Source: Bdellovibrio sp. ZAP7
GTDB lineage: Bacteria > Bacteroidota > Bacteroidia > Flavobacteriales > Flavobacteriaceae
Assembly: GCA_943324165.2 (NCBI GenBank)
Contig: CALPKO020000008.1
Location: 1-13,560, forward strand
Direction: 5' to 3'
Length of the DNA: 13,560 nucleotides
Shown here piece after piece: positions 1-13,560 of this stretch; the first letter of the stretch is position 1; each line of letters opens with the position of its first letter. The notes under the pieces were generated by a model. The model saw only the letters and a program-made list of their open reading frames with translations, was not told where the DNA came from and ran no database searches. Both the position numbers and the translations under genes were made by a program.

Positions 1-2
1 AC

Positions 3-476
3 GTAAACGGAATTTGGGGAGGATATACTGGCGAAGGCGCAAAAACGGTGATTGCTAGCAAAGCGTATGCGAAAATTTCGATGCGGTTAGTGCCAAATCA
101 AGATTGGGAAGAAATTACCGAACTGTTTTCTAAACATTTTGAAAGCATCGCGCCAAAGTCGGTAAAAGTGAAAGTTACACCTCACCACGGCGGACAAGGG
201 TATGTAACGCCAATTGACAGCATTGGTTACAAAGCGGCGAACATGGCTTATACAGAAACCTTCGGAATTCCAGCAATTCCTGTGCGTTCTGGCGGAAGTA
301 TTCCGATTGTGGCGTTGTTCGAAAAAGAATTAAAATCAAAAACGATATTAATGGGATTCGGATTGGATTCTGATGCGATTCACTCGCCAAATGAGCATTT
401 TGGGATTTTTAATTATTTAAAGGGCATTGAAACCATCCCACTTTTTTACAAGTATTTTGTGGAACTTTCAAAATAG
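3..476 (+). CDS. M20 family dipeptidase / metallopeptidase, C-terminal part (5' end outside window)
   Basis: The frame is open from the window edge, so the GTG at 48 is an internal valine and not a start. The visible 157 codons begin with NGIWGGYTGEGAKTVI and continue through RLVPNQDW, which matches the lid/dimerisation domain of M20 dipeptidases (CNDP-like). The end of the catalytic domain follows, with the TPHHGGQGY segment, the RSGGSIP loop that contacts substrate carboxylates in this family, and DAIHSPNEHF, whose first histidine is the usual late zinc ligand. The family hydrolyses di- or short peptides using two zinc ions. The catalytic N-terminal half lies upstream of the window. The gene ends in TAG and is followed 25 bp later by a strong hairpin terminator. 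The family is secure; the exact substrate cannot be told. Confidence 0.88.
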   Translation, partial: VNGIWGGYTGEGAKTVIASKAYAKISMRLVPNQDWEEITELFSKHFESIAPKSVKVKVTPHHGGQGYVTPIDSIGYKAANMAYTETFGIPAIPVRSGGSIPIVALFEKELKSKTILMGFGLDSDAIHSPNEHFGIFNYLKGIETIPLFYKYFVELSK

Positions 477-501
477 AAATTCTCGCAAAAGTATTAAGTC
501 G

Positions 502-540
502 AAAAATCCGTTTACTCAACTGTGTAAACGGATTTTTTAT
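502..540 (+). terminator. Rho-independent terminator after the M20 dipeptidase gene
   Basis: A perfect 14-bp stem pairs 502-515 with 524-537 around an 8-nt loop (516-523). The left arm starts with an A run and the right arm ends in a T run (533-538), so the hairpin could stop transcription in either direction. It lies 25 bp past the dipeptidase stop codon. Confidence 0.88.
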
Positions 541-647
541 TCTAATCAAAAACACAAGAACATTCTGTAAATATTGGCTTTACATTTGCACTAACTAATT
601 TCGCCAGTCTTAATAATGAACTTGTTTTGGTAACTAAATCAATCAAG

Positions 648-1239
648 ATGTTAAAAAAGTCCTTTATTCTATGTTCGGGTGCCGATAGCGACATTTTGAG
701 TGATTGTTCCAATGGTGAGTAAATCAAATATGCAGGAATTGGAGCAACTGTGTTTCATACTGCAATTATGGCTTTTATTGCCAATAGTTATGTGCTCTTT
801 ACCGTTTTTGACAATCCTTATATTGCGATGTCGTTCGGTTTGATTTGGGGATTACTTATTTTAAATCTCGACCGATTTATTGTTACGACCATCAAGAAAC
901 GAGAGTGTTTTAAGGATGAATTTATTCAAGCGATTCCAAGGATTCTTTTGGCGTTTATTTTGGCGATTGAAACTTCACCAATTATTGCAAAATTATTGTC
1001 TCCAAAAGGCGAATTTGATTTCAATGAAGTAGATGCTGAAATGGGAATTAAAAATCTGAGTGCCCTAAAAAGTTACCAAAGTGAATTGCAAAAGAAAACG
1101 GTTGCTAAGATGAACGATATGGTTTATGTTGATATCAAAGAAGATTAAGAATTGTATAAGTACAAGAAAAAATGTGCTTTAGAATTACTGAAATTTTAAA
1201 GCAGATGGATTTTTAGAAAAACAGAAAAAGACGGTATAA
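648..1239 (+). pseudogene. DUF4407 family membrane protein, degraded
   Basis: Reading from the ATG at 648 gives MLKKSFILCSGADSDIL, the usual DUF4407 N-terminus. An in-frame TAA at 720-722 follows, and then KYAGIGATVF resumes in the same frame. Two membrane segments follow, with the typical GLIWGLLILNLDRFIV and AIPRILL motifs. The text then jumps from the third membrane region straight into what looks like the last one (ETSPIIAKLLSPKGEFDF), so the middle soluble domain seems deleted. A second in-frame TAA lies at 1146-1148; same-frame reading then continues as ELYKYKKKCALELLKF. One extra T in the run 1194-1197 shifts the frame to KADGFLEKQKKTV, ending at TAA 1237-1239. The total is about 195 codons against roughly 350-400 that I recall for the family. 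The longest open piece is 750-1148. The function of intact members is unknown to me. A TACATTTG box at 581-588 may be the relic promoter. Confidence 0.82.
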
Positions 1240-1272
1240 TTTTTATTTTGGGAGAATTTTAAACACTTGATA

Positions 1273-1755
1273 CTATTTTATAATATCATTTATAATATCT
1301 ATATGATGTTTTGTGTGAATGGCTAAAAATAGGCAAGTTTGCTCTTTATTCAATAGTCCAAAACGTGAATGTTTGTAATTCGACTTTTGATTTAATTTTT
1401 CAAGTGTGGTAACGTTATTTTTGGTAAGTTCAAATTGAGACTTTAATTCTTCGAAAGTAATAATTCCAAAATTTCTATTTGAACTTGAACTTTTGAAACT
1501 TTTTCGTTTAATTTTTTTTCGAAAAAAAAGCACAATTCTCCTTAGGTTAAATGAATAAACGAAACGTTTAGGATTTGAATTTTTTAACTGAAAAACAGCA
1601 TCAGTTATAACTCTTAATGAGTGATCAATGTGCCAACCAGCTACTTTTCTGGAGATTTTATAATTTTGTTGTTCAAAATTTTCAAGATAACTTTCAAGTT
1701 CTTTCAATGCAATTTCAAGTTCATTCATTTTGGAAGCTATTTTATTATTTATCAT
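1273..1755 (-). CDS. DUF1569 family protein (DinB-like four-helix fold)
   Basis: The 160-residue protein has the family's paired histidine motifs: GWHIDHSLRVI (H42, H45) and, near the C-terminus, FLAIHTKHHIDIINDI (H147, H150, H151). In DinB-fold proteins such histidines bind a divalent metal. Other DUF1569 landmarks are NSNPKRFVYSFNLRR at about 60-73 and the HSRFGLL segment at about 129-135 before the last helix. It has no signal peptide or membrane segment and is probably cytoplasmic. The biochemical role of the family is not established; relatives of the DinB fold include thiol-dependent transferases. It stands alone on the minus strand, convergent with the DUF4407 pseudogene. The start at 1755 gives a normal family length. 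Confidence 0.8.
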   Translation of the reverse strand: MINNKIASKMNELEIALKELESYLENFEQQNYKISRKVAGWHIDHSLRVITDAVFQLKNSNPKRFVYSFNLRRIVLFFRKKIKRKSFKSSSSNRNFGIITFEELKSQFELTKNNVTTLEKLNQKSNYKHSRFGLLNKEQTCLFLAIHTKHHIDIINDIIK

Positions 1756-1788
1756 ATTAGCTTTAATTTGAAATATTATGCTTAAATT

Positions 1789-1890
1789 TTATTTTATAGT
1801 AGCTTGTTTTTTATGAGATGCGAAAACATCTAACCAAAAATAAATTTCTTCTATTGAAAGCTCTTTTTGATTTACTAAAATTTGTAGCAT
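1789..1890 (-). CDS. Possible small protein of 33 residues, unknown function
   Basis: An ATG at 1888-1890 opens a 33-codon frame starting MLQILVNQKELSIEEIYFWL and ending in TAA 33 bp before the start of the DUF1569 gene on the same strand. The amphipathic LSIEEIYFWLDVF stretch and charged tail look protein-like, and the spacing would allow co-transcription with the DUF1569 gene. The frame stays open upstream of the ATG until a TAG, so it could also be the end of a decayed gene. No family is recognised, and an ORF this short can arise by chance. Confidence 0.22.
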   Translation of the reverse strand: MLQILVNQKELSIEEIYFWLDVFASHKKQATIK

Positions 1891-2197
1891 TATCGATGTA
1901 GTTATGTCTTGTATTAAACATTTATTAAGTAGTAAAAACAAATAATTTATCTAAAAGTTTGTAAACGTATATCAAATCAATGAGTTTCACTTTTTATTAA
2001 AATCAAAAAATATTGCTTAATAACTTACTAAACTCAATTCTTTTTTTCTTGATTTGAAACAATCTGTAATTTCGTAATGGGTCTTTAATTCTTTCTTGTA
2101 GCTATGATTAAAATAGATAAGAACTGTTATTTATTAGCATCTTTTTCATTTTTATCAATAAAACAGTAAGAGATAAATGAGGTATTTTTTTTAATAA

Positions 2198-2307
2198 TTT
2201 GTTATTCAAGCTGCAATTTGATCCCCCGAACAAATTGTTTTATTTTACTAAAAGTATTAAACACCAATAAAAAGTACTTTTAAAACAGCGCAGCTTGAAA
2301 TAACAAA
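2198..2307. mobile_element. MITE-like element of about 110 bp with near-perfect inverted-repeat ends
   Basis: The arm 2198-2214 (TTTGTTATTCAAGCTGC) is the reverse complement of 2290-2307 except for one extra T, giving 17-18-bp terminal inverted repeats. Two further hairpins lie inside: CAATTTG 2214-2220 with CAAATTG 2231-2237 (loop ATCCCCCGAA), and TAAAAGTA 2249-2256 with TACTTTTA 2275-2282. Folded, this would make a three-way junction. No coding sequence fits inside and no clear target duplication is visible at the edges. A miniature non-autonomous transposon, a REP-type repeat or a structured RNA are all possible. Confidence 0.4.
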
Positions 2308-2397
2308 ATTTTTTAGTCAACCAATTTTGCTCGAATCCAATAAAATCAATGAAGAGTTTATATGTGATTTAATTATTTTTTTATTGTTTTGCACAAA

Positions 2398-2634
2398 TCA
2401 AACCTTATTATTGTATAACCCACCAAAAATCAAGCTTGAAAATGCGATTGCAAATAAAATTATTGACGTTGTTATATGGAATTCTAAATATTCTATCAAA
2501 ATCAATAAAATTATACCCAATGCGATTGATATATCATTAATTTCAAAATTTATTTCTGAATTTACTTCAGTATAAGATTTTTCCGAAGAATAATTTTTCT
2601 CTAAATTGGACTTTATTTTTCTAAAAATAATTAA
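2398..2634 (-). pseudogene. Fragment of a small membrane protein with no start codon
   Basis: The minus-strand frame is open for about 78 codons between stops but has no ATG, GTG or TTG at its 5' side. The translation begins with a charged part (RKIKSNLEKNYSSEKSYTEV). Two hydrophobic stretches follow, ISIALGIILLILIEYLEF and ITTSIILFAIAFSSLIFGGL, ending in YNNKV and a TGA at 2398-2400. The same frame then stays open for about 29 more codons. This charged-then-two-helix layout looks like real protein, so a decayed membrane-protein gene is the best reading. No family was recognised. Confidence 0.28.
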
Positions 2635-2809
2635 TTAATAAAAAAAAACTTCCAAGATTTTCAATAAAAACAAAACAATTTACGCCTTAAACGCCGATTA
2701 ATCAAATGCACAAAAAGGCGACTGTATCGAATTCTAATTATAATACAATTCAAATTTATTGGATTCAAATTGTTTAATTATAAAATTTTCGATGAACGTA
2801 CGTTTTATA

Positions 2810-2852
2810 TATTATAGAAGCAGTAAGCTGTCGACAAACGGTTTCTATAATA
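2810..2852 (-). terminator. AT-rich inverted repeat over the stop codon of the LytTR regulator gene
   Basis: TATTATAGAA (2810-2819) pairs exactly with TTCTATAATA (2843-2852) around a 23-nt loop containing GTCGAC. The right arm includes the stop codon of the last gene of the H-NOX operon. The stem is AT-rich and no clear U tract follows in the direction of transcription, so this is a weak or atypical terminator, or a 3'-end stabilising hairpin. Confidence 0.35.
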
Positions 2853-3546
2853 AATTTAATTGATTCATTAATTCGATTCGTTTATCCCTACTAATAGGAA
2901 TTATTTTATTTCTAATTAAAATAGTGCTGTTTTCGATATCTATAATTTTTTTAATATTAACAATATAGGAACGATGCGTTTTTACTAAAAATGAACTTTT
3001 TAATTTATCTTCAATTTTTTTTAAACTCGCATGAACTCGATATTCATTTTCATCAGTATTGATTATAATATAATCTTTATTTGTCTCGATATAATTAATA
3101 GTAGCTATTTCGATTCTGATTAATCGTTTATCGATATTGATATATATATCTGTCGTTGAGGTTGTTATGTTGTTCGTGGTTGAAGCTGTTTTACTTTTTT
3201 GCTTCGCTCTTTCAATGGCGCTTTCAAAACGAGATTGTTGAATAGGCTTTAATAAATAATCCGTCACACAGTTGTAATTAAATGCGTCTAGAGCAAAGTT
3301 TTTGTCGGTAGTTACAAGAATTATTTGAGGAAGATCCTTTAAAGTTTTAATTAAATCAATTCCAGAAAAGTTAGGCATGTGAATGTCTAAAAAAACCAAA
3401 TCTACCGCGTTGTTTTCATTAAAATATTTTATTGCGTCAATGGCATTTTCAAATATTTCAATTAGTTCAAGATTTGGAGTTTTTGATATTAATAAACACA
3501 ATACCTCTTGCGCTAATTTTTCGTCGTCTATAATTATACATTTCAT
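2845..3546 (-). CDS. LytTR family DNA-binding response regulator
   Basis: The 233-residue protein has a receiver domain (1-120) and a LytTR DNA-binding domain (about 133-233). Receiver landmarks are the acidic pair D7/D8, the phospho-acceptor D54 in VFLDIHMP, T79 in ILVTT, and K100 in LLKP. The LytTR part shows the typical IETNKDYIII and FLVKTHRSYIVNIKKI motifs. Such regulators bind direct repeats upstream of target genes when phosphorylated. It is the last gene of the H-NOX operon, 7 bp after the Hpt gene, so it is inferred to be the output of that relay. LytTR regulators in Bacteroidetes usually pair with membrane kinases of the His_kinase/YehU type; none is nearby. Its targets are not in the window. 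Confidence 0.93.
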   Translation of the reverse strand: MKCIIIDDEKLAQEVLCLLISKTPNLELIEIFENAIDAIKYFNENNAVDLVFLDIHMPNFSGIDLIKTLKDLPQIILVTTDKNFALDAFNYNCVTDYLLKPIQQSRFESAIERAKQKSKTASTTNNITTSTTDIYINIDKRLIRIEIATINYIETNKDYIIINTDENEYRVHASLKKIEDKLKSSFLVKTHRSYIVNIKKIIDIENSTILIRNKIIPISRDKRIELMNQLNLL

Positions 3547-3553
3547 AGGAATA

Positions 3554-3874
3554 CTATAGTGTTGTTAAAAAATTGTGTATTATATTCAATATATTTTCAA
3601 ATTCAAATTTTAAAAGAATAGAATTGTTCTTTAATTCTTGCTCATGATTATTTGATAATTCATAGGCTTTTTCCATACCTAAAAATCCTATTTTATGTCT
3701 AATTTTATGTACATTTTCAGCTGCATTTAATAAACAGTTATTTATCATATTAATATTGTATTGTTCTACTTCTGTAATAAATTCTGCTTTTAAGACTTTT
3801 AAAAGACTTTTTTTTGCAGCATTATCACCATCTGAAAGTTGATTTAAATAAATTAAATTAGGCGTTTCTTCCAT
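3554..3874 (-). CDS. Stand-alone Hpt (histidine phosphotransfer) protein
   Basis: The 106-residue, mostly helical protein has the Hpt signature ENVHKIRHKIGFLGMEKAYEL. H56 is the likely phospho-acceptor, corresponding to the histidine of the classic HKLKG box; here the motif reads HKIRH, with His in place of the usual Gly. It has no other domain, signal peptide or membrane segment. It starts 4 bp after the histidine kinase stop codon and ends 7 bp before the LytTR regulator, so co-transcription is almost certain. The role inferred from context is to pass phosphate from a receiver domain to the LytTR regulator. The kinase itself has no receiver domain, so the likely donor is the single-domain receiver encoded at 7070-7477. 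Confidence 0.82.
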   Translation of the reverse strand: MEETPNLIYLNQLSDGDNAAKKSLLKVLKAEFITEVEQYNINMINNCLLNAAENVHKIRHKIGFLGMEKAYELSNNHEQELKNNSILLKFEFENILNIIHNFLTTL

Positions 3875-3878
3875 GATT

Positions 3879-6509
3879 TTATTTTTTTAAAGTGAAGAAA
3901 AATGTTGTTCCAACTCCTTTTTCACTTTCTAACCAAATTTTTTCATCTTCGCTACTTAAGATTTTTTTAACTATCGAAAGTCCTATTCCCGTAGATTTAT
4001 ACTCTGCATTGAATGACTGAAACATTTCAAATATTTTTTTTTGATTTTTTCCTTCTATACCAACGCCGTTATCTTTTATTGCAAAGACAAAATGATCTTC
4101 AAATTCTTCTGATGAAATTTCTACATAGCCACTTGATTTGTCATTATAGTTGACTGCATTGCCGATAAGGTTTTGAAAAAGCTGTTGCATTCTGAATAGA
4201 TCATTATTAACAACCGGCAGTTTATTTTTTGTGATAATTTTTATATTTGAAGGGATAAAAATAATTTCCTTAACATTATCAATTACGTGATTTAAATTAA
4301 TTTTTGTTTTATTTTTTTTAGTATTTTCGATTTGTGAATAATTTAAAATGCCTTGTATAAGCAATTCCATTTTTTCAGTTTTATCTTGAATCATATTAAA
4401 ATACTTGATAGTTTTATCATTAAAAACCACATCTGTATCTTCTTTTATAAAAGTAATTAAGGAATGAATGCTGAGCAATGGAGATTTCAAATCGTGAGAT
4501 ACTATGTGCGCATAGTCATTTAATTGTTCGTTTTGTCTTTCGAGTTTTTCTAATAATAATTGTTGTCGTCTTTCGAGTTTTTTAATTTCAGTAATATCAA
4601 AATGTAAACCAATTGAACCAACAGCTTCTCCATTCAAATTATAGTTTGGAGCACCACTAATCATCCATGTTTTTTCCTCGCCATCTTTATTTTTTACATT
4701 TATTTCGTAGGAGTCTGAAATTCCTTTTGTTCTATCGATTTGTTTGCCTTGTAGCTTTTCTATATCTTCTTCTAGCAATAAAAGTTCTGCTCCTTTTTTT
4801 CCGATAAGAGAGCTAACTGTATATCCACTCATTTCTGAAAAACGTTGATTGGCCAGTAAAATAATACCATCATTGTCCACTTCTACTAGGCCAATATTCA
4901 TATTGTCGATAATACTTCTGTATTTTTCTTTTTCGTAATTTATACTTTCAGTATAATTTTTTTTTAAGGTAATATCATCATAACTCCATAAATTGCCTTT
5001 AAAATCTCCATCTATTATAATTGGGATGTATCTTCTCTCAAAAAATCTCCCATCAAGCAATTCTAGCTCCTCTTGTGCAACAAGTTCTTTTTTGCTTAAT
5101 ATCTCATTAATTCTATTAACAAAGTTGACTTTGTTTTTAAACATTTCTTTCACTTGTTCTGCAGAATTAGTGCAATCAAATCCAATCATTGTCTCTGGTT
5201 CTAATTCAATGCCGAACATATTGCAGAATTTTTTATTAACCAGTAGTATTTTTCTGTTTTCATCTTGTAACAAAATCCCAGACTGTAAATTTAAAATCAA
5301 AGAAGACAATCTGTTCTCTGATTCTTTAAGTTTATCTTTTATTGCTTTTTCTTTTGTGATGTCTTCAATAATAACGAAATACTGTACAAAATTACCTTTT
5401 GAATCTAAAACTGGTTGGCCTTTCATTCGTGTCCAGAAAGAACTTTTATTCTTTTTTTTGTGAAACACCTCAGAATCAAATGGAATTCCTTCATTAAATG
5501 ACGATATCATTTTTTTGACGCTGCCCAAGTTGGTCAATTCAGATACTCCTAAATCAACTAATGTTTTATCGATTATATCACTTTTTGTATATCCGGTAAG
5601 TTCAAGAAAGGAATCGTTAACCCAAAATACTTTTCCATCTAAATTACATAATACAACGCCGTTTTTATTGGCGCTTGCAACTAGTGAGAGTTTATTTAAT
5701 TCTTCTTGGCTTTGTTTTTGCTGAGAAATATCTCTGCCATAAATATTTATATAACCTTGTTTTTTTAGACTTTTACAAACAAACGAAAAATACTTTTTTT
5801 CACTTATTGCTTCAAAAATCCAACGCTCTTCATTAATGTCTATCTTATGAACGATATGTTTAAAAAAGGCTTCGGTTTCGTAATTTATACCTTCAAAAAC
5901 AAATGATTTGAAATTGTTTGCTGCGGGATTTGTTTTTAATAAATTCCCTTCGAAATCAATACGCAGTATAGGGTCTGGGTTTTGAGTTGGAAATAGTGCA
6001 ATTTCATAAATTTCTTTATTGGCTTTTTTTAAATCGTTTTTTTGCTTGTTTATTGTTGTTAATAATTCTTTAAGTTCTGCGTTATTAATTTCTTGATTTT
6101 TCAGAATAAGTAATAAATCTAATAAAGGATCGTGAAAAGCAAAATCGTGCAATGTCAATTGTTTTTCAACCATATCTTCCACCGAAGAAAACCAAGGTGA
6201 GCCTACAAAAAGAAAATAATCTTCTTGAATTTCAAATTGTCCTCGAAGCGAAATAGTTTTATTACTTTTAGCAACAATAACACAAAGCCGACCTAAAAGT
6301 TGATTAAAATTTTGAGGAATTAGGTTTTCTAAATGTGGTCTTAAGATTTGAAAAGAATCGGTAAAACATTTGTTTTCTTTTAATTCAGGAATAATTTTAA
6401 CAATGCTTTTCCCGACACTTTTGATATTTAAGTTCTTATCAATTAGAACATAAAAAGGAAAAATATTATTAAAACTACCAACATCAAAATTGAATTGTAT
6501 CTCTTTCAT
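3879..6509 (-). CDS. HNOBA-PAS histidine kinase, predicted partner of H-NOX
   Basis: This 876-residue protein lacks membrane segments and is probably cytoplasmic. Residues 10-137 form an HNOBA domain, the H-NOX-associated domain of soluble guanylate cyclases, with IFPFYVLIDKNLNI, SLRGQF, FLFVGSPWFSSVEDM and LHDFAFHDPLLDLLL. A coiled coil follows (about 138-170), then four PAS domains (about 175-262, 274-388, 398-518, 528-642). The HisKA domain has H672 in YAHIVSHDLKSPLLS. The ATPase domain has an N box at 779-790, DNGVGI at 813-818 and GIGLSIVKK at 841-849. There is no C-terminal receiver. Its ATG overlaps the stop codon of the H-NOX gene by 4 bp (ATGA, 6506-6509), which suggests translational coupling and a physical complex. 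The ligands of the PAS domains are unknown. Confidence 0.93.
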   Translation of the reverse strand: MKEIQFNFDVGSFNNIFPFYVLIDKNLNIKSVGKSIVKIIPELKENKCFTDSFQILRPHLENLIPQNFNQLLGRLCVIVAKSNKTISLRGQFEIQEDYFLFVGSPWFSSVEDMVEKQLTLHDFAFHDPLLDLLLILKNQEINNAELKELLTTINKQKNDLKKANKEIYEIALFPTQNPDPILRIDFEGNLLKTNPAANNFKSFVFEGINYETEAFFKHIVHKIDINEERWIFEAISEKKYFSFVCKSLKKQGYINIYGRDISQQKQSQEELNKLSLVASANKNGVVLCNLDGKVFWVNDSFLELTGYTKSDIIDKTLVDLGVSELTNLGSVKKMISSFNEGIPFDSEVFHKKKNKSSFWTRMKGQPVLDSKGNFVQYFVIIEDITKEKAIKDKLKESENRLSSLILNLQSGILLQDENRKILLVNKKFCNMFGIELEPETMIGFDCTNSAEQVKEMFKNKVNFVNRINEILSKKELVAQEELELLDGRFFERRYIPIIIDGDFKGNLWSYDDITLKKNYTESINYEKEKYRSIIDNMNIGLVEVDNDGIILLANQRFSEMSGYTVSSLIGKKGAELLLLEEDIEKLQGKQIDRTKGISDSYEINVKNKDGEEKTWMISGAPNYNLNGEAVGSIGLHFDITEIKKLERRQQLLLEKLERQNEQLNDYAHIVSHDLKSPLLSIHSLITFIKEDTDVVFNDKTIKYFNMIQDKTEKMELLIQGILNYSQIENTKKNKTKINLNHVIDNVKEIIFIPSNIKIITKNKLPVVNNDLFRMQQLFQNLIGNAVNYNDKSSGYVEISSEEFEDHFVFAIKDNGVGIEGKNQKKIFEMFQSFNAEYKSTGIGLSIVKKILSSEDEKIWLESEKGVGTTFFFTLKK

Positions 6510-7054
6510 TTTTTCCAGCTGACTTTAAATATCTCATGAGAATCACCTAAATCTCGCGTTTGAATTAAATTAATTGTAGTTGGAGTTTTGAACATGATTC
6601 CTAAACCTTGAATTAAACCTCTCACAAATTCTTGCAATCCTTCTCTTTTTGAAAAATAGTGTAAATGGATGCTATTTTCTGAAATTTGACTAACTTTAAA
6701 TTCTGGTGGTGTTAATTTTGGATAAATCAACATGATTCTATTGTGAAATAAAGGTAAGTTCACTAGGAATTCACTTAAATTTGTGCCTCCCGATTTCATT
6801 AATGCACCATATTTTTCTGTTGAAGTTCGTACAATCCACCATTCGCCAAAAGCAATTAGTACTTCGCTCACGGTCATATTCATTTCCTCAGAAACTGCAA
6901 ATGCGAGTTTAAAAGTAATGTCATCATCATAAGCTTCGCTGCTGATAAAGAAATCTTCGTCAATACCACTTCGCTCCAAAATGTTTTCCCAATTTTGTGC
7001 CCCGTAATTCTCGGTAACTAAATCTTGTATGGCTTTATTTACTATTCCGTACAT
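6506..7054 (-). CDS. H-NOX (heme NO-binding, HNOB) sensor protein
   Basis: The 182-residue protein is a complete stand-alone H-NOX domain. It begins MYGIVNKAIQDLV, as the family does. The proximal heme ligand is H104 in NLPLFHNRI. The conserved proline region is at 116-117 (KLTPPEF). The propionate-binding YxSxR motif is Y133-S135-R137. The YFSKREGLQEFV segment aligns without gaps to soluble guanylate cyclase beta1, placing F143 where beta1 has Ile145. There is no distal tyrosine of the kind that stabilises O2 in some anaerobe H-NOX proteins, so a preference for NO is inferred. It lies 15 bp after the receiver gene and overlaps the kinase start by 4 bp. H-NOX proteins in other bacteria control an adjacent kinase or a cyclic-di-GMP enzyme. 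Confidence 0.94.
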   Translation of the reverse strand: MYGIVNKAIQDLVTENYGAQNWENILERSGIDEDFFISSEAYDDDITFKLAFAVSEEMNMTVSEVLIAFGEWWIVRTSTEKYGALMKSGGTNLSEFLVNLPLFHNRIMLIYPKLTPPEFKVSQISENSIHLHYFSKREGLQEFVRGLIQGLGIMFKTPTTINLIQTRDLGDSHEIFKVSWKK

Positions 7055-7069
7055 TGTTAAAGTATATTG

Positions 7070-7477
7070 CTAAATTAGTTCATTACAACTCCAGTAATCT
7101 ACAAGTCGTTTAATTCTGTCCAGGTAATCATCATATTTCAATGGTTTTAAAATATATCCAGCAATGCCAATTTTATAGCATTCTAAAATATCTTTTTGAT
7201 TGCCTGAAGTTGTTAAAATAATAGAAGGTATGTATTTTAAAATTTTATCATTTTTTAAAATGGCAAGAAACTCTAATCCATTTAATTTTGGCATATTTAA
7301 ATCCAAAACTATAATGTCGGGAATATTTTCTTTTACTTTTAGTATCTGCAGTGCATCTTCACCATTATTGGCTTCTGTGATTTTGTGGTTTAATGCCAAC
7401 GCTTTTAAAACCCTTTTGAATTTCATTACTTCGATAGTATCGTCTTCGATTAGAAGTATATTTAGTGATTTTATCAT
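7070..7477 (-). CDS. Single-domain response regulator (CheY/Rcp1-like receiver)
   Basis: The 135-residue protein is a receiver domain with no output domain. It has the acidic triad E11/D12/D13, the phospho-acceptor D59 in IIVLDLNMP, T89/T90 in IILTTSGNQ and K111 in YILKPL. It lies directly upstream of the H-NOX gene with a 15-bp gap on the same strand. The operon also contains a kinase without a receiver and a lone Hpt, so this protein is well placed to act as the intermediate receiver, as Spo0F does in Bacillus. It could instead be a phosphate sink or act through protein-protein contact. The 74 bp upstream (7478-7551) show no recognisable promoter, so it may be transcribed from the gene before it. 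Confidence 0.92.
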   Translation of the reverse strand: MIKSLNILLIEDDTIEVMKFKRVLKALALNHKITEANNGEDALQILKVKENIPDIIVLDLNMPKLNGLEFLAILKNDKILKYIPSIILTTSGNQKDILECYKIGIAGYILKPLKYDDYLDRIKRLVDYWSCNELI

Positions 7478-7551
7478 TTTGTACAGTGATGTTGGTAAAC
7501 CTTTGAATTTGATAATAATTGCGGTACAGCTTATTTTTTCTTTTATAAAGA

Positions 7552-8247
7552 CTACATAAAGCCCAAAATTTCTCGCTTCAAATTATCGTATTCACCTTGC
7601 AGAATCAAACCATTGTCTAATAGTTTTTTATAATTCTGCAATTTCGCAAATAATTCGTCTTGAGTCAATTCTCCCATTCCTTTTTCATTTGCGTTTAAAG
7701 TTGTTGCTATTGGTTCTTCATACGAAGATTGATTATATATAGGAATAATTTCTGCAAAATTAGTAACTTCTTCGGTGGGCATTTCTTCTTCGGTTTCAAA
7801 TTCTTCAACAACTTCAATTGGAGTTATTAAATTTGGTGCATTTACAGTCGGATTTTTTAACAAATCCAATTGTTCTTTCGCAAAAGTATATAATTTCCGC
7901 GCTTGATTTTTAGGTAAATAATCAACGGTATGGGTTAATTCTGATTTCGTAGAAAATGTAAAATCAGAACCTAAAATTCCCTCTTTCACAAAACTTGCTT
8001 CAATATCGTCCCAATCATAATCCATAAACTCCATTGACAAACCTAAATTTTTTGGTTTGCATAAGATGATTCGTTTATTGGTAACAACAATACTTTCCGG
8101 AAGAATCGTTACAGCAGGTTTTTTTTGAACAGCAATGTATCCTATTTCTTCGTTGGACATAAGTAGATTTTCCAATTTAGAAGTTATTTTTTCTATTGCT
8201 TTTGGATCCTGGTCTTCGTTTAATATTTTTTTTAAATTGTCTATCAT
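7552..8247 (-). CDS. PH-like domain and SHOCT domain protein
   Basis: The protein has 231 residues. Residues about 30-130 look like a bacterial PH domain of the YokE type: a beta-rich stretch with SIVVTNKRIILCKPK, a DYDWDDIEASFVKEG segment and a final helix at about 114-130. An acidic, low-complexity linker follows (about 140-190). The last 33 residues (197-229; QDELFAKLQNYKKLLDNG, then GEYDNLKREIL) are a SHOCT motif, a short helical hairpin found at the ends of many proteins and thought to promote oligomer formation. No signal peptide is seen, so it is probably cytoplasmic. It is encoded 74 bp ahead of the receiver gene on the same strand and could be the first gene of the H-NOX transcript, but no function links it to that pathway. 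Confidence 0.72.
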   Translation of the reverse strand: MIDNLKKILNEDQDPKAIEKITSKLENLLMSNEEIGYIAVQKKPAVTILPESIVVTNKRIILCKPKNLGLSMEFMDYDWDDIEASFVKEGILGSDFTFSTKSELTHTVDYLPKNQARKLYTFAKEQLDLLKNPTVNAPNLITPIEVVEEFETEEEMPTEEVTNFAEIIPIYNQSSYEEPIATTLNANEKGMGELTQDELFAKLQNYKKLLDNGLILQGEYDNLKREILGFM

Positions 8248-8279
8248 TTATGTTGAACTTGTTTTAGTATCTTTCAATA

Positions 8280-8308
8280 CAAATTATTTTATGCTTCACG
8301 TTTCACAA
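8280..8308 (-). promoter_or_regulatory. Candidate Bacteroidetes promoter for the PH/SHOCT gene and possibly the H-NOX operon
   Basis: Read on the minus strand, a TTG (8306-8308) is followed after exactly 19 bp by TAATTTG (8280-8286), one base shorter than the Bacteroidetes -7 consensus TAnnTTTG. It ends 32 bp upstream of the ATG at 8247. It is the only promoter-like signal found between 8247 and the receiver gene. Confidence 0.35.
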
Positions 8309-8317
8309 AAGTAATGC

Positions 8318-8689
8318 CTAATCTTGGATTTCTAGAATTTCAGCTTGCATTTTTTTGGTCAAACTTTTGAAGACCAAATCGTAAGAGTGATTAATTAATT
8401 CGCAAATCATTTTGTCGGTAACATCACTGTTAAAATGGATTGTATTCCAGTGTGTTTTGCTCATGTGCCAGCCAGGGTTGATGGCTTCATATGTTGCTCG
8501 GAGCTCATTCGCTCTCTCTGGATCACATTTCAAATTGATACTGGCATTTTCATTTTCCCATTCTTTTAAGGAAGTCAAAGCAAACATTTTTCCTCCCACT
8601 TTAAACACCAAAGTGTCTTCATCAAAAGGAAAATGTTCCGTTACAGCTTTTTGAGAAAGACAAAATTCGTAAAGTTGTTGGATGTTCAT
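8318..8689 (-). CDS. MmcQ/YjbR family protein
   Basis: The 123-residue protein matches the MmcQ/YjbR family over its whole length: MNIQQLYEFCLSQKAVTEHF at the start, then FDEDTLVFKVGGKMFALTSL, INLKCDPERANELRATY and PGWHMSKTHWNTIHF. The family has a CyaY-like fold and is often annotated as DNA-binding, but its physiological role is unclear. It stands upstream of the PH/SHOCT gene, separated by 70 bp, and divergent from the aldehyde dehydrogenase gene. A perfect TAATTTTG box on the minus strand lies only 5 bp before the ATG, so a leaderless transcript is possible if that box is used. Confidence 0.87.
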   Translation of the reverse strand: MNIQQLYEFCLSQKAVTEHFPFDEDTLVFKVGGKMFALTSLKEWENENASINLKCDPERANELRATYEAINPGWHMSKTHWNTIHFNSDVTDKMICELINHSYDLVFKSLTKKMQAEILEIQD

Positions 8690-8726
8690 ATTTTCAAAAT
8701 TAATTAAATTTTATGAATTGTAGAAC

Positions 8727-8759
8727 TTGTTTTGAATTTAAAAAATGTTAATTTTAACA
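8727..8759 (+). promoter_or_regulatory. Candidate promoter with overlapping inverted repeat upstream of the aldehyde dehydrogenase
   Basis: TTG (8727-8729), a 19-bp spacer and TAATTTTA (8749-8756) fit the Bacteroidetes promoter pattern except for the last base. TGTTAA (8746-8751) and TTAACA (8754-8759) form an inverted repeat with a 2-bp gap directly over the -7 box, which could be an operator. The start codon at 8784 lies 27 bp beyond the box. Confidence 0.4.
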
Positions 8760-8783
8760 AAATTTTAATTTTATTCTTTTTCA

Positions 8784-10406
8784 ATGCAAAATCATATCTC
8801 TAAAAATCAGCTGTTTGATGTTTTTTCTTCTGTAAATTCTAAAGAAATCCCATTTATCAATCAAGAAGAATACTTGGTTAATGGAGCATTCAAACCTTGG
8901 AAGGGTCCTTTCAACGAAATCCATTCCGCTATTTGTAAACCATCAAACGATGAAAAATTAGAACGCATTTTAATTGGTAAAATTCCTAAAACTGGTTTAC
9001 CTGAAGCACTGGAATGTTTAGAAAGTTCCGAAAAAGCTTATGACAATGGTTTCGGAGAATGGCCAATGCTTTCAGTTGAAAAACGAATTCACCATGTAGA
9101 ACATTTTGTTGGTGAAATGCTAAACTTGAGAACAGAAGTAGTCAATTTATTGATGTGGGAAATTGGAAAATCTGAAAAAGATTCTGAAAAAGAATTTGAC
9201 AGAACCATAAAATACATTTACGACACGATTGAATCTTTAAAAAAATTAGAACGAAAATCGGCCAGTTTTACCATCGAAGAAGGTGTTATTGGTCAAGTTC
9301 GTCGATCACCACTTGGAATAACATTGTGTATAGGGCCATATAATTATCCGTTGAACGAAACGTATACTTTGTTAATTCCAGCCTTAATTATGGGCAACGT
9401 AATCATGTTTAAACCACCTAAGCATGGATGTTTGTTACACTATTGTTTGTCAAAAGCAATAGAAAAAAGTTTTCCTAAAGGTGTTGTGAACTATCTTTAC
9501 GGAAAAGGAAGTGAAATTGTTCAACCTTTAATGAATACCGGTAAAATCAATGTTTTAACTTTAATTGGATCGAGTAAAGTAGCTTCGGATATCAAAAAAG
9601 CGCATCCAAAAGTAAACCGTTTGCGCGCCATTTTAGGATTAGATGCCAAAAATCCAGCCATTGTTTTAGAAAATGCCAATTTAGAAAATGCAGTAGAAGA
9701 ATGCGTTTTAGGAAGTTTGTCATTCAATGGTCAAAGATGTACCGCATTGAAAATTTTATTTGTTCATGAAAACGTAAAAGATGAATTTATAAAAAAATTC
9801 TGTGAGAAAGTTGACGCCTTAAAATTTGGAATGCCTTGGGACGAAAAAGTGCAAATTACACCATTGCCAGAGGAAGATAAATTTAAGTATTTAAATGATT
9901 GTATAGCCGATGCAGAAAGCAAAGGAGCAAAAATCATGAATCAAAACGGTGCTGTTCAAAATGGATCTTTGTTTTTTCCGGCGGTAATGTATCCAGTTAG
10001 TGAAGGCATGAAATTGTATCGCGAGGAGCAATTTGGACCAATTGTTCCAATTGTTACTTTCAACGATTTGCAAGAACCGATTGATTATATGATAACTTCT
10101 AATTATGGTCAACAAGTGAGTATTTTTGGAACCGATGCAAAAGAAATTTCGCATTTAATTGATGGATTAGTCAACCAAGTTTCACGTGTTAACTTGAATG
10201 TTCAGTGCCAACGCGGACCAGATACTTTTCCATTTACAGGTCGCAAAGATTCTGCAGAAGGAACACTTTCGGTTTATGATGCACTGCGCTCTTTTTCAAT
10301 TAGAACTGTTGTTGCAACTAAAGAAAACAAGGAAAACAAGGCCATTATCAATGAAATTGTAACCGAAGGGGAGTCTAATTTTTTATCAACGAAGTTTATT
10401 TTTTAA
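8784..10406 (+). CDS. Aldehyde dehydrogenase, GapN-type (NADP-dependent non-phosphorylating glyceraldehyde-3-phosphate dehydrogenase-like)
   Basis: The 540-residue protein is a full-length member of the NAD(P)-dependent aldehyde dehydrogenase superfamily. The oxyanion-hole asparagine is N187 in IGPYNYPLNE, and the catalytic thiol is C319 in SFNGQRCTALK. The GQRCTxxK motif is characteristic of GapN enzymes, which oxidise glyceraldehyde 3-phosphate directly to 3-phosphoglycerate while producing NADPH. The EEQFGPIVP segment near the C-terminus is also typical. The residue aligned with the usual general base (Glu268 of ALDH2, 34 residues before the cysteine) is G285, because the canonical ELGGK reads GLDAK. 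The protein is longer than classical GapN by about 50-60 residues, partly at the N-terminus. It is transcribed alone. The substrate assignment is inferred from motifs only. Confidence 0.82.
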   Translation: MQNHISKNQLFDVFSSVNSKEIPFINQEEYLVNGAFKPWKGPFNEIHSAICKPSNDEKLERILIGKIPKTGLPEALECLESSEKAYDNGFGEWPMLSVEKRIHHVEHFVGEMLNLRTEVVNLLMWEIGKSEKDSEKEFDRTIKYIYDTIESLKKLERKSASFTIEEGVIGQVRRSPLGITLCIGPYNYPLNETYTLLIPALIMGNVIMFKPPKHGCLLHYCLSKAIEKSFPKGVVNYLYGKGSEIVQPLMNTGKINVLTLIGSSKVASDIKKAHPKVNRLRAILGLDAKNPAIVLENANLENAVEECVLGSLSFNGQRCTALKILFVHENVKDEFIKKFCEKVDALKFGMPWDEKVQITPLPEEDKFKYLNDCIADAESKGAKIMNQNGAVQNGSLFFPAVMYPVSEGMKLYREEQFGPIVPIVTFNDLQEPIDYMITSNYGQQVSIFGTDAKEISHLIDGLVNQVSRVNLNVQCQRGPDTFPFTGRKDSAEGTLSVYDALRSFSIRTVVATKENKENKAIINEIVTEGESNFLSTKFIF

Positions 10407-10413
10407 TTTTTAA

Positions 10414-10464
10414 TTTTCAGTTTTCATTCAAGTTTTTTTGTAAACAGCGAACGAAAACTGAAAA
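10414..10464. terminator. Bidirectional terminator between convergent genes
   Basis: TTTTCAGTTTTC (10414-10425) pairs exactly with GAAAACTGAAAA (10453-10464), a 12-bp stem with a 27-nt loop. T-rich and A-rich tracts flank it on both sides. It sits between the convergent aldehyde dehydrogenase and cyclase genes and probably serves both. Confidence 0.6.
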
Positions 10465-10468
10465 CTAA

Positions 10469-11221
10469 TTAATGAATTTTGTATAGAACGGGCTTGCTTG
10501 GACTAGCATCATTTTCAAAAGAAGCGATTTGCAAATTCAAAATATAACTGCCATCTGCGACTTGATTTTCAACATAAATCATTTCTGTAATGGTGCAATT
10601 TAATCTTGCATCACTATTTAAATGTTCGGTGTTTTTTACATTCCAAAATGCTTTGTGAGCTAATAATTTGCCTTCATCTTCTTCTCTATCAACACTTGGT
10701 AAATCAATCAGCAAATGTTGAATGCCGATTTCTCGAATATAAATCGCTGCCGCTTCGGTTAAATAAGCTGGATTGGAATTCGAATAATTCTTCGATTTTT
10801 TAGCGTCAGAATTAGGTAAAGTTCTAATAATTAAAGCTTCTGGAAATTTCCCATTCAAAAGATTTTCAATTTGATCTTTGGTAATAATTAAGTCATTATC
10901 TAAAATTGCGGGTTCAACAGATATTAATTCTGCAAAAAAGAAAAACTGTTTCAAACATTGATTAATGCTATAAAAATCATGTGTAATATGTCCTAAACAT
11001 TCGGTGTGCGTTCCGTGTCCGTGCGGATTAAAAAAGATGTTATTGAAATTGGTTGAACTTCCTTCACTCACTTTTCCAATCCAATCACCAAATTTCACTG
11101 GTTCAATTGCAGGTTTTTCAATGTACCACGCAATTGGATTTTCATTCGTATTAGACAAAGGAATGGAAATATCAATCGGATTTGATAAGTCGATTTGGAA
11201 GTTTTGGATTATTGCTTTCAT
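10469..11221 (-). CDS. Cyclase family protein (kynurenine formamidase-like metal hydrolase)
   Basis: The 250-residue protein belongs to the cyclase family (PF04199), which includes kynurenine formamidase and polyketide cyclase-like enzymes. The metal-binding motif is NPHGHGTHTECLGHI (H67, H69, H72, E74, H78), a variant of the usual HxGTHxDxPxH. A second family motif, LLIDLPSVDREEDEGKLLAH, lies at about 167-187, and the C-terminus carries the conserved GSYILNLQIA strand. It is cytoplasmic, with no signal peptide. The real substrate is unknown. Its start codon lies only 3 bp from the left inverted repeat of the GxxExxY cassette, so it and hemW were probably neighbours before that cassette arrived. 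Confidence 0.85.
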   Translation of the reverse strand: MKAIIQNFQIDLSNPIDISIPLSNTNENPIAWYIEKPAIEPVKFGDWIGKVSEGSSTNFNNIFFNPHGHGTHTECLGHITHDFYSINQCLKQFFFFAELISVEPAILDNDLIITKDQIENLLNGKFPEALIIRTLPNSDAKKSKNYSNSNPAYLTEAAAIYIREIGIQHLLIDLPSVDREEDEGKLLAHKAFWNVKNTEHLNSDARLNCTITEMIYVENQVADGSYILNLQIASFENDASPSKPVLYKIH

Positions 11222-11224
11222 TTT

Positions 11225-11262
11225 TTAACCGCAAGGTGCGCAAGGTTTTACGCAAGGTGCGC
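11225..11262 (-). repeat. Left 38-bp inverted repeat of the GxxExxY cassette
   Basis: This stretch begins TTAACCGCAAGG and contains CGCAAGGTGCGC twice (11230-11241 and 11251-11262). It matches the reverse complement of 11727-11764 at 30 of 38 positions without gaps. It starts 3 bp upstream of the cyclase start codon. Confidence 0.75.
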
Positions 11263-11269
11263 TAAGATT

Positions 11270-11647
11270 TTAAAGATTATTTACTACTCGTCTTATTCCG
11301 TTTTTAATCAAATTTACATTGAAATTGATTAACATTCCAAGTTTGCAATTAGTTAATTTTAAATAAGTTAAAAGTTGAGCAAAATGAATATCATTTAATG
11401 CTTCAACAGATTTTATTTCTAAAATAAGTTTATTTTCAACAATAATATCAATTCTATAGCCAATATCTAATCTCACTTCTTCATATACTATTAGTAGTGC
11501 TTTTTGTTTTTGGATAGCAAGGCCTGTTTTTTTTAATTCATAGAAAAGGCACTCTTCATAAGCGCTTTCCAATAACCCAGGTCCTAAATTTTGATGAACT
11601 TTCAAAGCACAATCAAACACGATTTTTGATAACTCATTTTCTGTCAT
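11270..11647 (-). CDS. GxxExxY protein (PD-(D/E)XK nuclease-like fold)
   Basis: The 125-residue protein has the family name motif GLLESAY (G24, E27, Y30) after KVHQNLGPG. A PD-(D/E)XK-like core follows: D67 in GYRIDIIV, and E77 and K79 in LILEIKS. A conserved QLLTYL helix starts at Q91. The fold predicts nucleic-acid cleavage or binding, but I know of no demonstrated function for the family. It is the only gene in a 540-bp block bounded by 38-bp imperfect inverted repeats and fits exactly between the hemW stop codon and the cyclase start codon. Its reading frame and active-site residues are intact, so it is not simply debris. Confidence 0.9.
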   Translation of the reverse strand: MTENELSKIVFDCALKVHQNLGPGLLESAYEECLFYELKKTGLAIQKQKALLIVYEEVRLDIGYRIDIIVENKLILEIKSVEALNDIHFAQLLTYLKLTNCKLGMLINFNVNLIKNGIRRVVNNL

Positions 11648-11726
11648 GACTTATTTTAACAACTATTCTTACTTATCACATCCAAGCGTTGAGCCTAATT
11701 ATATAATGCTTAAAATTTAATACCAT

Positions 11727-11764
11727 GCGAACTTAGCGTAAATCTTTGCGGCCTTTGCGGTTAA
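11727..11764 (+). repeat. Right 38-bp inverted repeat of the GxxExxY cassette
   Basis: Read on the minus strand it starts TTAACCGCAAAGG and continues with further CGCAAAG-like units. It matches the left arm (11225-11262) at 30 of 38 positions in inverted orientation. It ends one base before the hemW stop codon. Confidence 0.75.
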
Positions 11765-11765
11765 A

Positions 11766-12899
11766 CTAAACCAAATTTACTAAAAACAAATCACTTGCAA
11801 TTCCATCGCACAAAAATTTACCTTTTGGAGTGGGTTTTAAAATTTCGTTTTCTATAAAAAGAAAATCATCATTGATAAATTTCAAGGCGTGTTTGCGGAT
11901 ATATTCCAAATAAAAACTCCCAAATTCCCTTTCAATTCTGTCTAAAGAAATTCCCCAAATGGTGCGCAAACCAGTCATTACATATTCGTTGTATCGGTCT
12001 GTTTTTGTGAGGATTTCACTTTCAGACGGCAACTTGTTCTCGTCAATTGATTTTAAATAAGTGGAATTATTAGATACATTCCAACTGCGTTTTTCGCCAT
12101 CAAAACTGTGTGCCGAAGGCCCAATCCCGATGTATTTTTTCCCTAACCAATAGGCGGAATTGTTTCTAGAAAAGTAATTTTCCTTTCCGAAATTGGATAA
12201 TTCATAATGAATAAGACCATTTTCTTCTAGTTTTTTTACCAAAATAGAGAAGTGTTCGGCTGCAATTTCATCTTTTGGAGCAGCAATTTCTCCGTTTTCA
12301 ATCAGTTTTTTCAGAGCTGTTTTTGGTTCAACGGTTAAAGCGTAACTCGAAATATGAGGAATTCCGAATGAAAGCGCGGTTTCAATATTTTCGGCCCATT
12401 TTTCATTTGAAAGTCCCGGAATCCCATAAATTAAATCCACAGAAATATTGTCGAAATACTGCGTTGCAATTTGCAAGCATTTTTTTGCTTCCTCCGCATT
12501 ATGGGCGCGATTCATCATTTTCAAATCTTCTTCAAAAAAAGATTGAATTCCTATCGAAAGTCGGTTTATCCCAATTTTCGAGAGTTGAATTAAATATGCT
12601 TCAGATAAATCATCGGGATTGGCTTCGAGTGTAATTTCAGGATTTTGAGCTACATTATAATTATGGTAAACGGAATCAATCAACAATTTAATTTCAGGAA
12701 TTTGCAATCTACTTGGTGTTCCACCACCAAAATAAATGGTTTCAACAACTTCCCCTTGAAACTCACTTTTGCGCATTTCAATTTCTTTAGCCAAAGCAAT
12801 AACCATTTCCTCTTTTTTCTTCATTGAAGTAGAAAAATGGAAATCGCAGTAGTTACAAGCTTGTTTGCAAAATGGGATATGGATGTAAATGCCGCTCAT
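11766..12899 (-). CDS. hemW: Radical SAM family heme chaperone HemW
   Basis: The 377-residue protein is a complete HemW. It begins with MSGIYIHIPFCKQACNYCDF, whose CxxxCxxC cluster motif is C11, C15 and C18. It continues with YFGGGTPSRL (57-66), EANPDDL, INRLSIGIQSF and DLIYGIPG, and ends with the HemN-type C-terminal domain (GLRTIWGISLDRIEREFG). HemW uses a 4Fe-4S cluster and S-adenosylmethionine and binds heme to deliver it to respiratory enzymes; it is often mis-annotated as oxygen-independent coproporphyrinogen oxidase (HemN). The N-terminal IHIPFC and the extra Cys-poor spacing fit HemW rather than HemN. It sits between the GxxExxY cassette at its 3' end and the GTGTTCAG array at its 5' end. 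No link with the H-NOX genes 5 kb away is implied. Confidence 0.93.
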   Translation of the reverse strand: MSGIYIHIPFCKQACNYCDFHFSTSMKKKEEMVIALAKEIEMRKSEFQGEVVETIYFGGGTPSRLQIPEIKLLIDSVYHNYNVAQNPEITLEANPDDLSEAYLIQLSKIGINRLSIGIQSFFEEDLKMMNRAHNAEEAKKCLQIATQYFDNISVDLIYGIPGLSNEKWAENIETALSFGIPHISSYALTVEPKTALKKLIENGEIAAPKDEIAAEHFSILVKKLEENGLIHYELSNFGKENYFSRNNSAYWLGKKYIGIGPSAHSFDGEKRSWNVSNNSTYLKSIDENKLPSESEILTKTDRYNEYVMTGLRTIWGISLDRIEREFGSFYLEYIRKHALKFINDDFLFIENEILKPTPKGKFLCDGIASDLFLVNLV

Positions 12900-12905
12900 T
12901 GATTA

Positions 12906-13213
12906 GTGTTCAGATTTAAAAAGTATTCAGTGTTCAGTTTTTATTGTTTAGATTGAAAAGTGTTCAGTTTTAAGTTTTTTAGTGTTAAGTTTTTAATTTT
13001 TAGTGTTCAGTAATTTGGTGTTCAGTTTAAAAGCTTAAAGTTTTTGGTTTTTAGTGTTCAGTGTTCAGATTTAAATAGTGTTCAGCAGTAACTTTTTTAA
13101 TAATTAGTTAATAAAACTTTTAATTTGAGTGGTTTCAAGTATTGTTATATTTAAATGAAGACTAAGCAAATGAAGACTGTGACTGTATAAATGAGCACTA
13201 ATCAACTGAACAG
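12906..13213 (+). repeat. Dense interspersed array of GTGTTCAG repeats
   Basis: Eight exact copies of GTGTTCAG occur within 180 bp, starting at 12906, 12930, 12960, 13003, 13018, 13054, 13061 and 13078. Degenerate copies (for example GTGTTAAG at 12982) and AGTTTTTA-like spacers lie between them. One inverted copy, CTGAACA, lies at 13206-13212 near the end of the four-helix-bundle gene. A separate direct repeat, AAATGAAGACT, occurs at 13153-13163 and 13168-13178, and a 10-bp palindrome AGTGATCACT at 13212-13221. The 328-bp interval between hemW and the next gene holds no coding sequence. Confidence 0.75.
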
Positions 13214-13227
13214 TGATCACTTTATTA

Positions 13228-13560
13228 TCATTCCTTTTTAACGCCAAATTTTTCTGAATTTAATAACATATAATTTATTAATTTTCCAACTTCGATACTT
13301 TCAAATAGCAATTCATTATAGGTTTCGTTAGATATATATTTACATGAAGCAGCAAATTCCAACCAAACTTGGGTTTCCGAATTCTCACCATCAGAATCTG
13401 TTAATTTACTATAAAAATGTTTTGGATAAACCCGCTTTCTGTAAGCTTCAGCAATTGTGGCTGGAACGCTCCTAGAACTTCGTCTGATTTGAGCAGATAA
13501 CGAATATATTTCTTCTTTCGGAAATGTTTTTGTTATTTCAAAAATTTTCATTGCTAATGC
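13228..13560 (-). CDS. Four-helix-bundle protein (23S rRNA intervening-sequence type), 5' end outside window
   Basis: The visible 110 codons include the family hallmark: IFEITKTFPKEEIYSL, then SAQIRRSSRSVPATIAEAYRKR, followed by the helices with SKLTDSDGENSETQVWLEFA and ESIEVGKLINYML. The frame remains open to the window edge and reads ALAMKIFE, so the ATG at 13549 is probably internal; the usual helix 1 (consensus like LKVWQKA) lies outside. The fold is shared by S23/IVP proteins found in 23S rRNA intervening sequences and by Avd proteins of diversity-generating retroelements. Here it is a free-standing gene with no rRNA, reverse transcriptase or template repeat nearby. It is followed at its 3' side by the GTGTTCAG array. 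Confidence 0.85.
   Translation of the reverse strand, partial: ALAMKIFEITKTFPKEEIYSLSAQIRRSSRSVPATIAEAYRKRVYPKHFYSKLTDSDGENSETQVWLEFAASCKYISNETYNELLFESIEVGKLINYMLLNSEKFGVKKE

Follow-up and report, generated by a model that had tools for sequence, protein, structure and literature searches.

A putative nitric oxide-responsive phosphorelay with one gene per module and a LytTR output in a flavobacterial contig

The five-gene operon and its conservation

The window, a stretch of 13,560 nucleotides (positions 1 to 13,560, forward strand, of contig CALPKO020000008.1 in assembly GCA_943324165.2, deposited as Bdellovibrio sp. ZAP7 with a GTDB lineage ending in Flavobacteriaceae), carries five open reading frames (ORFs) within positions 2845-7477, all on the minus strand and with successive gaps of 15, -4, 4 and 7 bp. 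They encode a lone receiver, an H-NOX sensor, a sensor histidine kinase, a lone histidine phosphotransfer (Hpt) protein and a LytTR response regulator (Table 1). A preliminary description had read them as a nitric oxide (NO)-sensing phosphorelay with a separate gene for every module, and the genes, gaps, domains and active residues that it listed (D59, H104, H672, H56 and D54) are confirmed by the ORFs, the Pfam matches and the predicted Hpt fold. Judged by these domains, residues and fold, all the modules of a His-Asp-His-Asp relay are encoded within the operon.

Table 1. Genes and predicted elements of the operon region in the window
Feature	Position	Strand	Remarks
Lone receiver	7070..7477	-	135 aa; PF00072 2.3e-22; D59; proposed first phosphate acceptor
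H-NOX sensor	6506..7054	-	182 aa; PF07700 4.5e-48; H104; YFSKR at 133-137
Sensor histidine kinase	3879..6509	-	876 aa; HNOBA (best stretch 81-167), PAS domains, HisKA (H672), HATPase
Lone Hpt phosphotransfer protein	3554..3874	-	106 aa; H56; assigned by predicted fold and homologue
LytTR response regulator	2845..3546	-	233 aa; PF04397 1.8e-17 and PF00072 1.5e-15; D54
Predicted LytTR site	2784..2843	-	just past the LytTR stop codon; boxes at 0/21/42, middle one weak
Predicted -7 box TAAATTTG	2751..2758	-	offset 85 from the start of the site 2784-2843
bPH_3-domain gene	7552..8247	-	PF14470 3.1e-21; 74 bp upstream of the receiver gene

The H-NOX protein bears the marks of its family, namely the HNOB domain, the proximal histidine and the YxSxR heme motif, and as a family member it would bind heme and NO. 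Its best sequence match in the PDB is Nostoc Alr2278 (6.5e-49), followed by soluble guanylate cyclase beta1, and no other H-NOX was found in the genome of the window, which is 68% complete. The kinase, whose gene overlaps the H-NOX gene by 4 bp, has an HNOBA domain (PF07701, 4.6e-21) and a HisKA match barely above the cut-off (27.8 versus 26.9 bits), and the Pfam scan gave no receiver match in this protein. Among the solved structures closest in sequence to the lone receiver are the phytochrome response regulators RcpA, RcpB and RCP1.

The conservation of the gene set was assessed in two ways. PF07700 was present in 27 of 395 Bacteroidota genomes, and the receiver, H-NOX, kinase, Hpt and LytTR genes lay on one strand at 13 of the 30 Bacteroidota H-NOX places, the window included. 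In the second test, genome contigs were fished with the lone receiver alone and the best 80 of at least 583 relatives were kept; these loci belong to flavobacteria by title, together with a few less precisely named Bacteroidetes, and contain the receiver by construction. Hpt was present in 76 of them, LytTR in 72, H-NOX in 70 and a kinase in 77, and all four partners occurred together in 65. Since the five genes recur at 13 H-NOX places and the four partners follow the receiver in 65 fished loci, their order is not due to chance, and this neighbourhood check bears out the expectation that the genes are conserved together.

The window, the 80 fished loci and 16 further loci make up the set of 97 loci used below (L numbers; genomes are given as G numbers). 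For the further loci, 29 stretches were fetched and 13 without a receiver above threshold were left out; two of the 16 duplicate members of the 80, and in L068, L106 and L139 the contig ends inside the operon. Across the 97 loci the median gaps were 2.5 bp between receiver and H-NOX, -1 between H-NOX and kinase, -1 between kinase and Hpt, and 10 between Hpt and LytTR. In one genome (L055/L056) the receiver/H-NOX segment occurs twice, in similar copies some 57 kb from each other, one of them with a kinase frame of 214 aa that holds the HNOBA part only, and in L048 (10971-13242) a second Hpt-LytTR pair stands in tandem behind the first.

The active residues follow the same pattern of conservation: all 97 aligned loci keep D59 and K111 of the receiver, and D54 of the LytTR regulator is kept in 85 of 85 and H56 of the Hpt in 89 of 89. 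The 106-aa protein itself gave no Pfam or NCBIfam match at 0.01 / 0.001, PF01627 included, and one of its homologues (P0016) carries PF01627. Its AlphaFold2 model is a four-helix bundle (predicted local distance difference test score 94.4), the first 20 rows of a Foldseek search with this model were all Hpt proteins (best E 7e-3), and the best VIA rows for it were Hpt proteins as well. By its modelled four-helix fold with a conserved phospho-histidine, the protein is an Hpt.

The proposed phosphate route and its inputs

In the route that we infer, H-NOX would bind NO and act on the HNOBA end of the kinase, as would be expected from its family; after autophosphorylation of the kinase at H672, the lone receiver (D59), the Hpt (H56) and finally the LytTR regulator (D54) would take up the phosphate in turn, an order suggested by domain content, conservation and fused relatives. 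In relatives, the phosphorylated regulator would bind direct repeats with a spacing of 21 bp that lie shortly before a TAnnTTTG -7 box, and would control its own operon and, in some of them, also neighbouring genes for proteins secreted by the type IX secretion system (T9SS) and for polysaccharide synthesis. Hpt proteins require an aspartyl phosphate donor and, since the lone receiver is the sole non-output receiver in the operon, it would be that donor. The fused relatives occur at four of the other 17 H-NOX places (L035, L036, L038 and L039), where the sensor gene adjoins one for a hybrid kinase with HisKA, HATPase, receiver and Hpt domains; the Hpt match in L035 is barely above the cut-off, and in L038 a LytTR gene follows with a 4-bp overlap. 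At the remaining 13 places there was no such fused kinase among what was tested. In L035 (13765-15386), the genes after H-NOX and the fused kinase encode a lone receiver and a bacterial sugar transferase, the latter with a weak receiver-like stretch below the cut-off.

The same genes could also form a branched two-component system, with independent phosphorylation of the lone receiver and the LytTR regulator by the kinase. The receiver would then serve as a sink for phosphate or as an output that binds proteins, and the Hpt would drain or balance phosphate instead of passing the signal on. Kinases can address more than one receiver, and in L040 and L041 no Hpt gene adjoins the receiver, H-NOX and kinase genes; the genomes of both, however, carry a receiver-kinase-Hpt-LytTR set elsewhere. 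The fused relatives place receiver and Hpt in series behind the kinase, and with an Hpt in 76 of the 80 fished loci we regard the branched arrangement as rather improbable. For the serial relay, domains and conservation support the components, the relay logic and the LytTR output put forward in the preliminary description.

A 377-aa protein encoded before the Hpt gene in many loci was recognised as FIST (PF08495 and PF10442, checked in L034 and L044), which has been described as a domain of NosP NO sensors (PMC12570481). A FIST gene is present in 44 of the 80 fished loci; in 43 of these an intact FIST gene with its own kinase lies ahead of the Hpt gene, the exception being a fragment in L064. 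None was present among the operon genes of the window and none was found in its genome, within the 68% covered. The claim of a complete relay holds for the His-Asp-His-Asp modules, all of which are there, and has to be narrowed in that the window does not have the fullest form, as 43 of 80 relatives add FIST with its own kinase. The FIST proteins of these loci may bind heme or NO, and FIST is a candidate second NO sensor of the relay. A third kinase occurs in four of the 97 loci, two of them from the same genome. The H-NOX-linked, FIST-linked and third kinases have in common the consensus SHDLK-x-PLR at the phospho-histidine (PLL in the window), which fits one common partner, and the first and second kinase cores of the same locus are 48% identical (median of 52).

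The H-NOX slot is filled by two main kinds and a small intermediate group. For the kind not found in the window (reference L044), the closest PDB entries are 6bdd and 6bde (1e-98), which we take to be Kordia H-NOX. Where the kinase was read, it contained HNOBA in 22 of 22 loci of the window kind, in three of three intermediate loci and in none of the 59 loci of the other kind. When loci of the two kinds are compared, the sensors share a median identity of 25% and the first 150 aa of the kinases 14%, compared with 67% among the receivers, 68% among the LytTR regulators, 49% in the kinase core and 47% among the Hpt proteins. From these comparisons it looks as if sensors are swapped together with the kinase front end while the relay stays; the relay would be the conserved unit, and H-NOX one exchangeable input, because the FIST-kinase branch is present in 43 of 80 loci and ten of 80 have no H-NOX. 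In a kinase-core tree whose bootstrap had not settled, the window groups with HNOBA kinases and H-NOX-less Flavobacterium kinases in a starred set of 29 rows (100/99), apart from the FIST-linked kinases, and its closest row is a second kinase of L096 (100/97).

Relay sets were also found away from H-NOX. Strong Hpt matches (E of 1e-24 or better) occurred in 16 of 16 H-NOX genomes and in three of 20 genomes without H-NOX. Among six regions picked by Hpt matches away from H-NOX, a choice that unlike the receiver-fished set does not presuppose the receiver, five contain a receiver and a kinase (G154, G202, G324, G088 and G312), and the L168 region has an Hpt without receiver. The kinase carries HNOBA without H-NOX in G154, G202 and G324, of which G202 and G324 have FIST; the G202 locus, the same record as L067, has its LytTR gene inverted, and LytTR was not seen in the fetched stretch of G324. 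Receiver-kinase-Hpt sets without H-NOX imply that NO sensed via H-NOX cannot be the sole input.

This raises the alternative of a relay that mainly senses another input, such as PAS ligands, redox state or oxygen, with H-NOX as an accessory or redox sensor instead of an NO switch. Its proponents could point to the PAS domains of the window kinase, to the ten fished loci without H-NOX (in which tblastn within the locus gave no H-NOX match), six of them also without FIST, and to some H-NOX studies that reportedly concern oxidation. On the other side, H-NOX or intact FIST, both families of NO sensors, is present in 73 of the 80 fished loci, and 76 of 87 H-NOX proteins have YxSxR and the proximal histidine, the other 11, some of them short, being without YxSxR. 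Those 76 have no tyrosine at the position that we presume to be the distal one. Given these features of the sensors, we regard a relay that mainly senses another input as quite improbable.

Predicted LytTR sites and the genes behind them

The sites of LytTR regulators are typically direct repeats separated by about two helical turns. Upstream of the receiver gene, the 97 regions contain 134 boxes of the repeat CCATTCGTC[GT]A[CT]ACTTA (up to 2 mismatches), 21 bp apart, compared with a mean of 3.2 in shuffles (first-order Markov resamplings) and 4 on the reverse strand. A third box ending in CGAAA stands in register, giving three direct repeats at 0/21/42, and with a three-box matrix 89 of the 97 regions reach 15 bits or more (88 when near copies were left out of training). 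In 33 of 87 receiver promoters the site is followed by TAnnTTTG, a -7 type of Bacteroidetes, and 30 of these have it at offset 84 or 85 (shuffled mean 4). These repeats are predicted to be LytTR binding sites.

The sites concentrate around the operon. A stringent site pattern was found exactly once in 8 of 11 whole genomes, in each case next to the operon and, in G335, on the strand opposite to it, and the reversed pattern gave no match. Of 36 genomes searched with a second pattern, 6 contained matches, 11 in total and none farther than about 7 kb from the H-NOX gene; the 20 genomes without H-NOX had none. Three of these 20 carry the relay, and two of the three, G202 and G324, have a receiver-promoter site to which the matrix gives more than 50 bits; thus, a missing second pattern does not mean a missing system. 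Over the 1.82 Mb of operon loci there were 195 sites above 18 bits, versus none in one shuffled copy. After merging, 85 were receiver promoters and 45 lay downstream, on the same strand and within 150 bp of a gene. One gene cluster behind the downstream sites comprises 28 genes in 28 loci, and the three members checked (L033, L044 and L086) have a T9SS tail. Behind other sites stand a cluster of 11 small proteins, of which the one checked (L034) is a STAS protein, five chain-length/AAA_31 or GNVR-type proteins (two checked, L065 and L113) and, singly or paired, a UDP-sugar dehydrogenase, nucleotidyl transferase, glycosyl transferase, cytidylyltransferase and outer-membrane efflux proteins; others behind sites had no Pfam match. 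The names of these genes suggest a role in surface and matrix.

Sites also occur behind the operon. Among 83 loci with sequence past LytTR, 31, including the window, have a site above 8 bits within 300 bp, with the -7 box at offset 84 or 85 in 20 of them. The window site scores 19.6 bits with the three-box matrix (next best in the window, -2.5), a value reached by none of 500 shuffles, and 19.8 bits with a matrix built on 56 sites in loci that have the other kind of H-NOX; a single-box pattern with 3 mismatches gave no match in the window. Behind this site, at 2398-2520 on the minus strand, lies a short hydrophobic frame of 40 aa from TTG.

Taken together, we consider it likely that the operon belongs to a multi-step phosphorelay that responds to NO, has one module per gene and ends at LytTR and local genes, the window being a reduced and diverged member. 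A number of observations weigh against this interpretation. As regards the system at large, 17 of the 30 H-NOX places are of another type; H-NOX is missing in ten of 80 fished loci and FIST too in six of those; three H-NOX-less genomes retain receiver, kinase and Hpt, so that NO need not be the main signal; and the kinase could phosphorylate LytTR or another regulator directly. The stringent site pattern is absent from three of the 11 genomes (G000, G304 and G158), and 10 of 16 H-NOX genomes, including that of the window, have no match to the second pattern. As regards the window, the best Foldseek E value of its Hpt is modest and this protein has diverged (40% identity to other loci), as has its LytTR regulator, whose median identity to other loci (51%) is below their mutual identity. 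The window has no three-box site within 250 bp upstream of the receiver gene; such a site is also missing in L073, L094, L096, L119, L135 and L138, and L117 is just under the 15-bit mark (14.4). With its weak middle box, the site past LytTR reaches 9.4 bits with a two-box matrix, as did 3 of 200 shuffles, and no target gene was recognised behind it.

The loss of the FIST branch and of the autoregulatory site, the diverged LytTR regulator and the lack of a recognised target gene could indicate that the operon is decaying in its own genome. We hold this to be unlikely, as the five frames are intact with their active residues and, in the site that is left, boxes 1 and 3 and the -7 box are still in register; the window probably represents a reduced member of the operon family whose relay is still intact.

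Other genes lie around the operons. A homologue of the bPH_3 gene of the window, which is possibly co-transcribed with the receiver operon, is found upstream in six other loci (two from one genome) and downstream in one. At 648-1229 on the plus strand, the window has a DUF4407 gene whose relatives match 648-941 and 942-1229 separately, and its frame may be interrupted in this contig. In 10 of the 97 loci a Molybdopterin oxidoreductase cluster (member checked, L076) lies upstream on the same strand, and in eight a nitrite/sulfite-reductase-domain cluster (one member checked); the L076 gene at 4924-9875, with Molybdopterin oxidoreductase domains, would be nitrate reductase-like by name. Genes of 1504 and 488 aa lie upstream of the operon in L032 (10782-16767) and L034 (695-6680), and are presumably glutamate synthase subunits.

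Relation to known NO signalling systems and phosphorelays

A GGDEF domain was found in none of the 16 H-NOX genomes, in a search for GGDEF as distinct from EAL and HD-GYP whose control matched in 8 of 14, the genome of the window being incomplete. As a tentative proposal, in which we place somewhat less confidence than in the relay itself, a transferable NO phosphorelay might replace cyclic di-GMP in flavobacteria without GGDEF: two H-NOX clades and FIST would be plug-in inputs to a receiver-Hpt-LytTR core that switches a T9SS-surface/exopolysaccharide cassette via a 21-bp triple-repeat site, so that NO would set attachment at the level of transcription. For bacteria in which no GGDEF enzyme was found, this would amount to a pathway from NO to the surface that lends itself to testing, its DNA site being defined and its gene set compact, and the exchange of H-NOX kind and kinase front end on a kept relay would be a natural experiment in sensor rewiring.

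In the Bacillus Spo0F-Spo0B-Spo0A phosphorelay, receiver, phosphotransferase and transcription factor are likewise encoded by separate genes, and several kinases feed one receiver; unlike in the window, its signals are unrelated, its genes are scattered and Spo0B is not a classical Hpt. In Shewanella oneidensis, H-NOX and a FIST-type sensor (NosP) reportedly feed one biofilm-controlling network that ends in cyclic di-GMP enzymes, whereas the relay described here ends in LytTR, in genomes with no GGDEF match (0 of 16).

The preliminary description had held that known H-NOX relays end in cyclic di-GMP enzymes or hybrid factors, which is incomplete: in Vibrio parahaemolyticus, H-NOX/HqsK delivers phosphate to LuxU, a lone Hpt that in turn supplies the transcription factor LuxO (PMC6759604). 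According to the available part of that account, the Vibrio circuit resembles the window in its H-NOX-controlled kinase, His-Asp-His-Asp relay, lone Hpt and transcription factor output, and its Hpt is phosphorylated only via a receiver domain, as we propose for the window (PMC6759604). It differs in that the receiver is within a hybrid kinase, the Hpt is common to quorum sensing and the output is LuxO with small RNAs, whereas the window operon has its own gene for every module and its output is LytTR. In Legionella, H-NOX2 adjoins a kinase and a CheY-like lone receiver, as in the window, and the account, in the part available, names no Hpt or LytTR (PMC8738867). In the NosP/NosK/NosR operon a FIST gene adjoins a kinase gene, as in 43 of 80 relatives; its output is a regulator with a cyclic di-GMP-type domain, and the window has no FIST gene (PMC12570481). 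Searches of open-access literature listed no recognisable account of a one-module-per-gene H-NOX operon ending in LytTR, of its combination with FIST, of its site or of the sensor exchange. In summary, as far as the available parts of these accounts go, Vibrio is known to have a chain in which H-NOX acts through a kinase and a lone Hpt on a transcription factor, and the one-module-per-gene operon ending in LytTR appears to be new.

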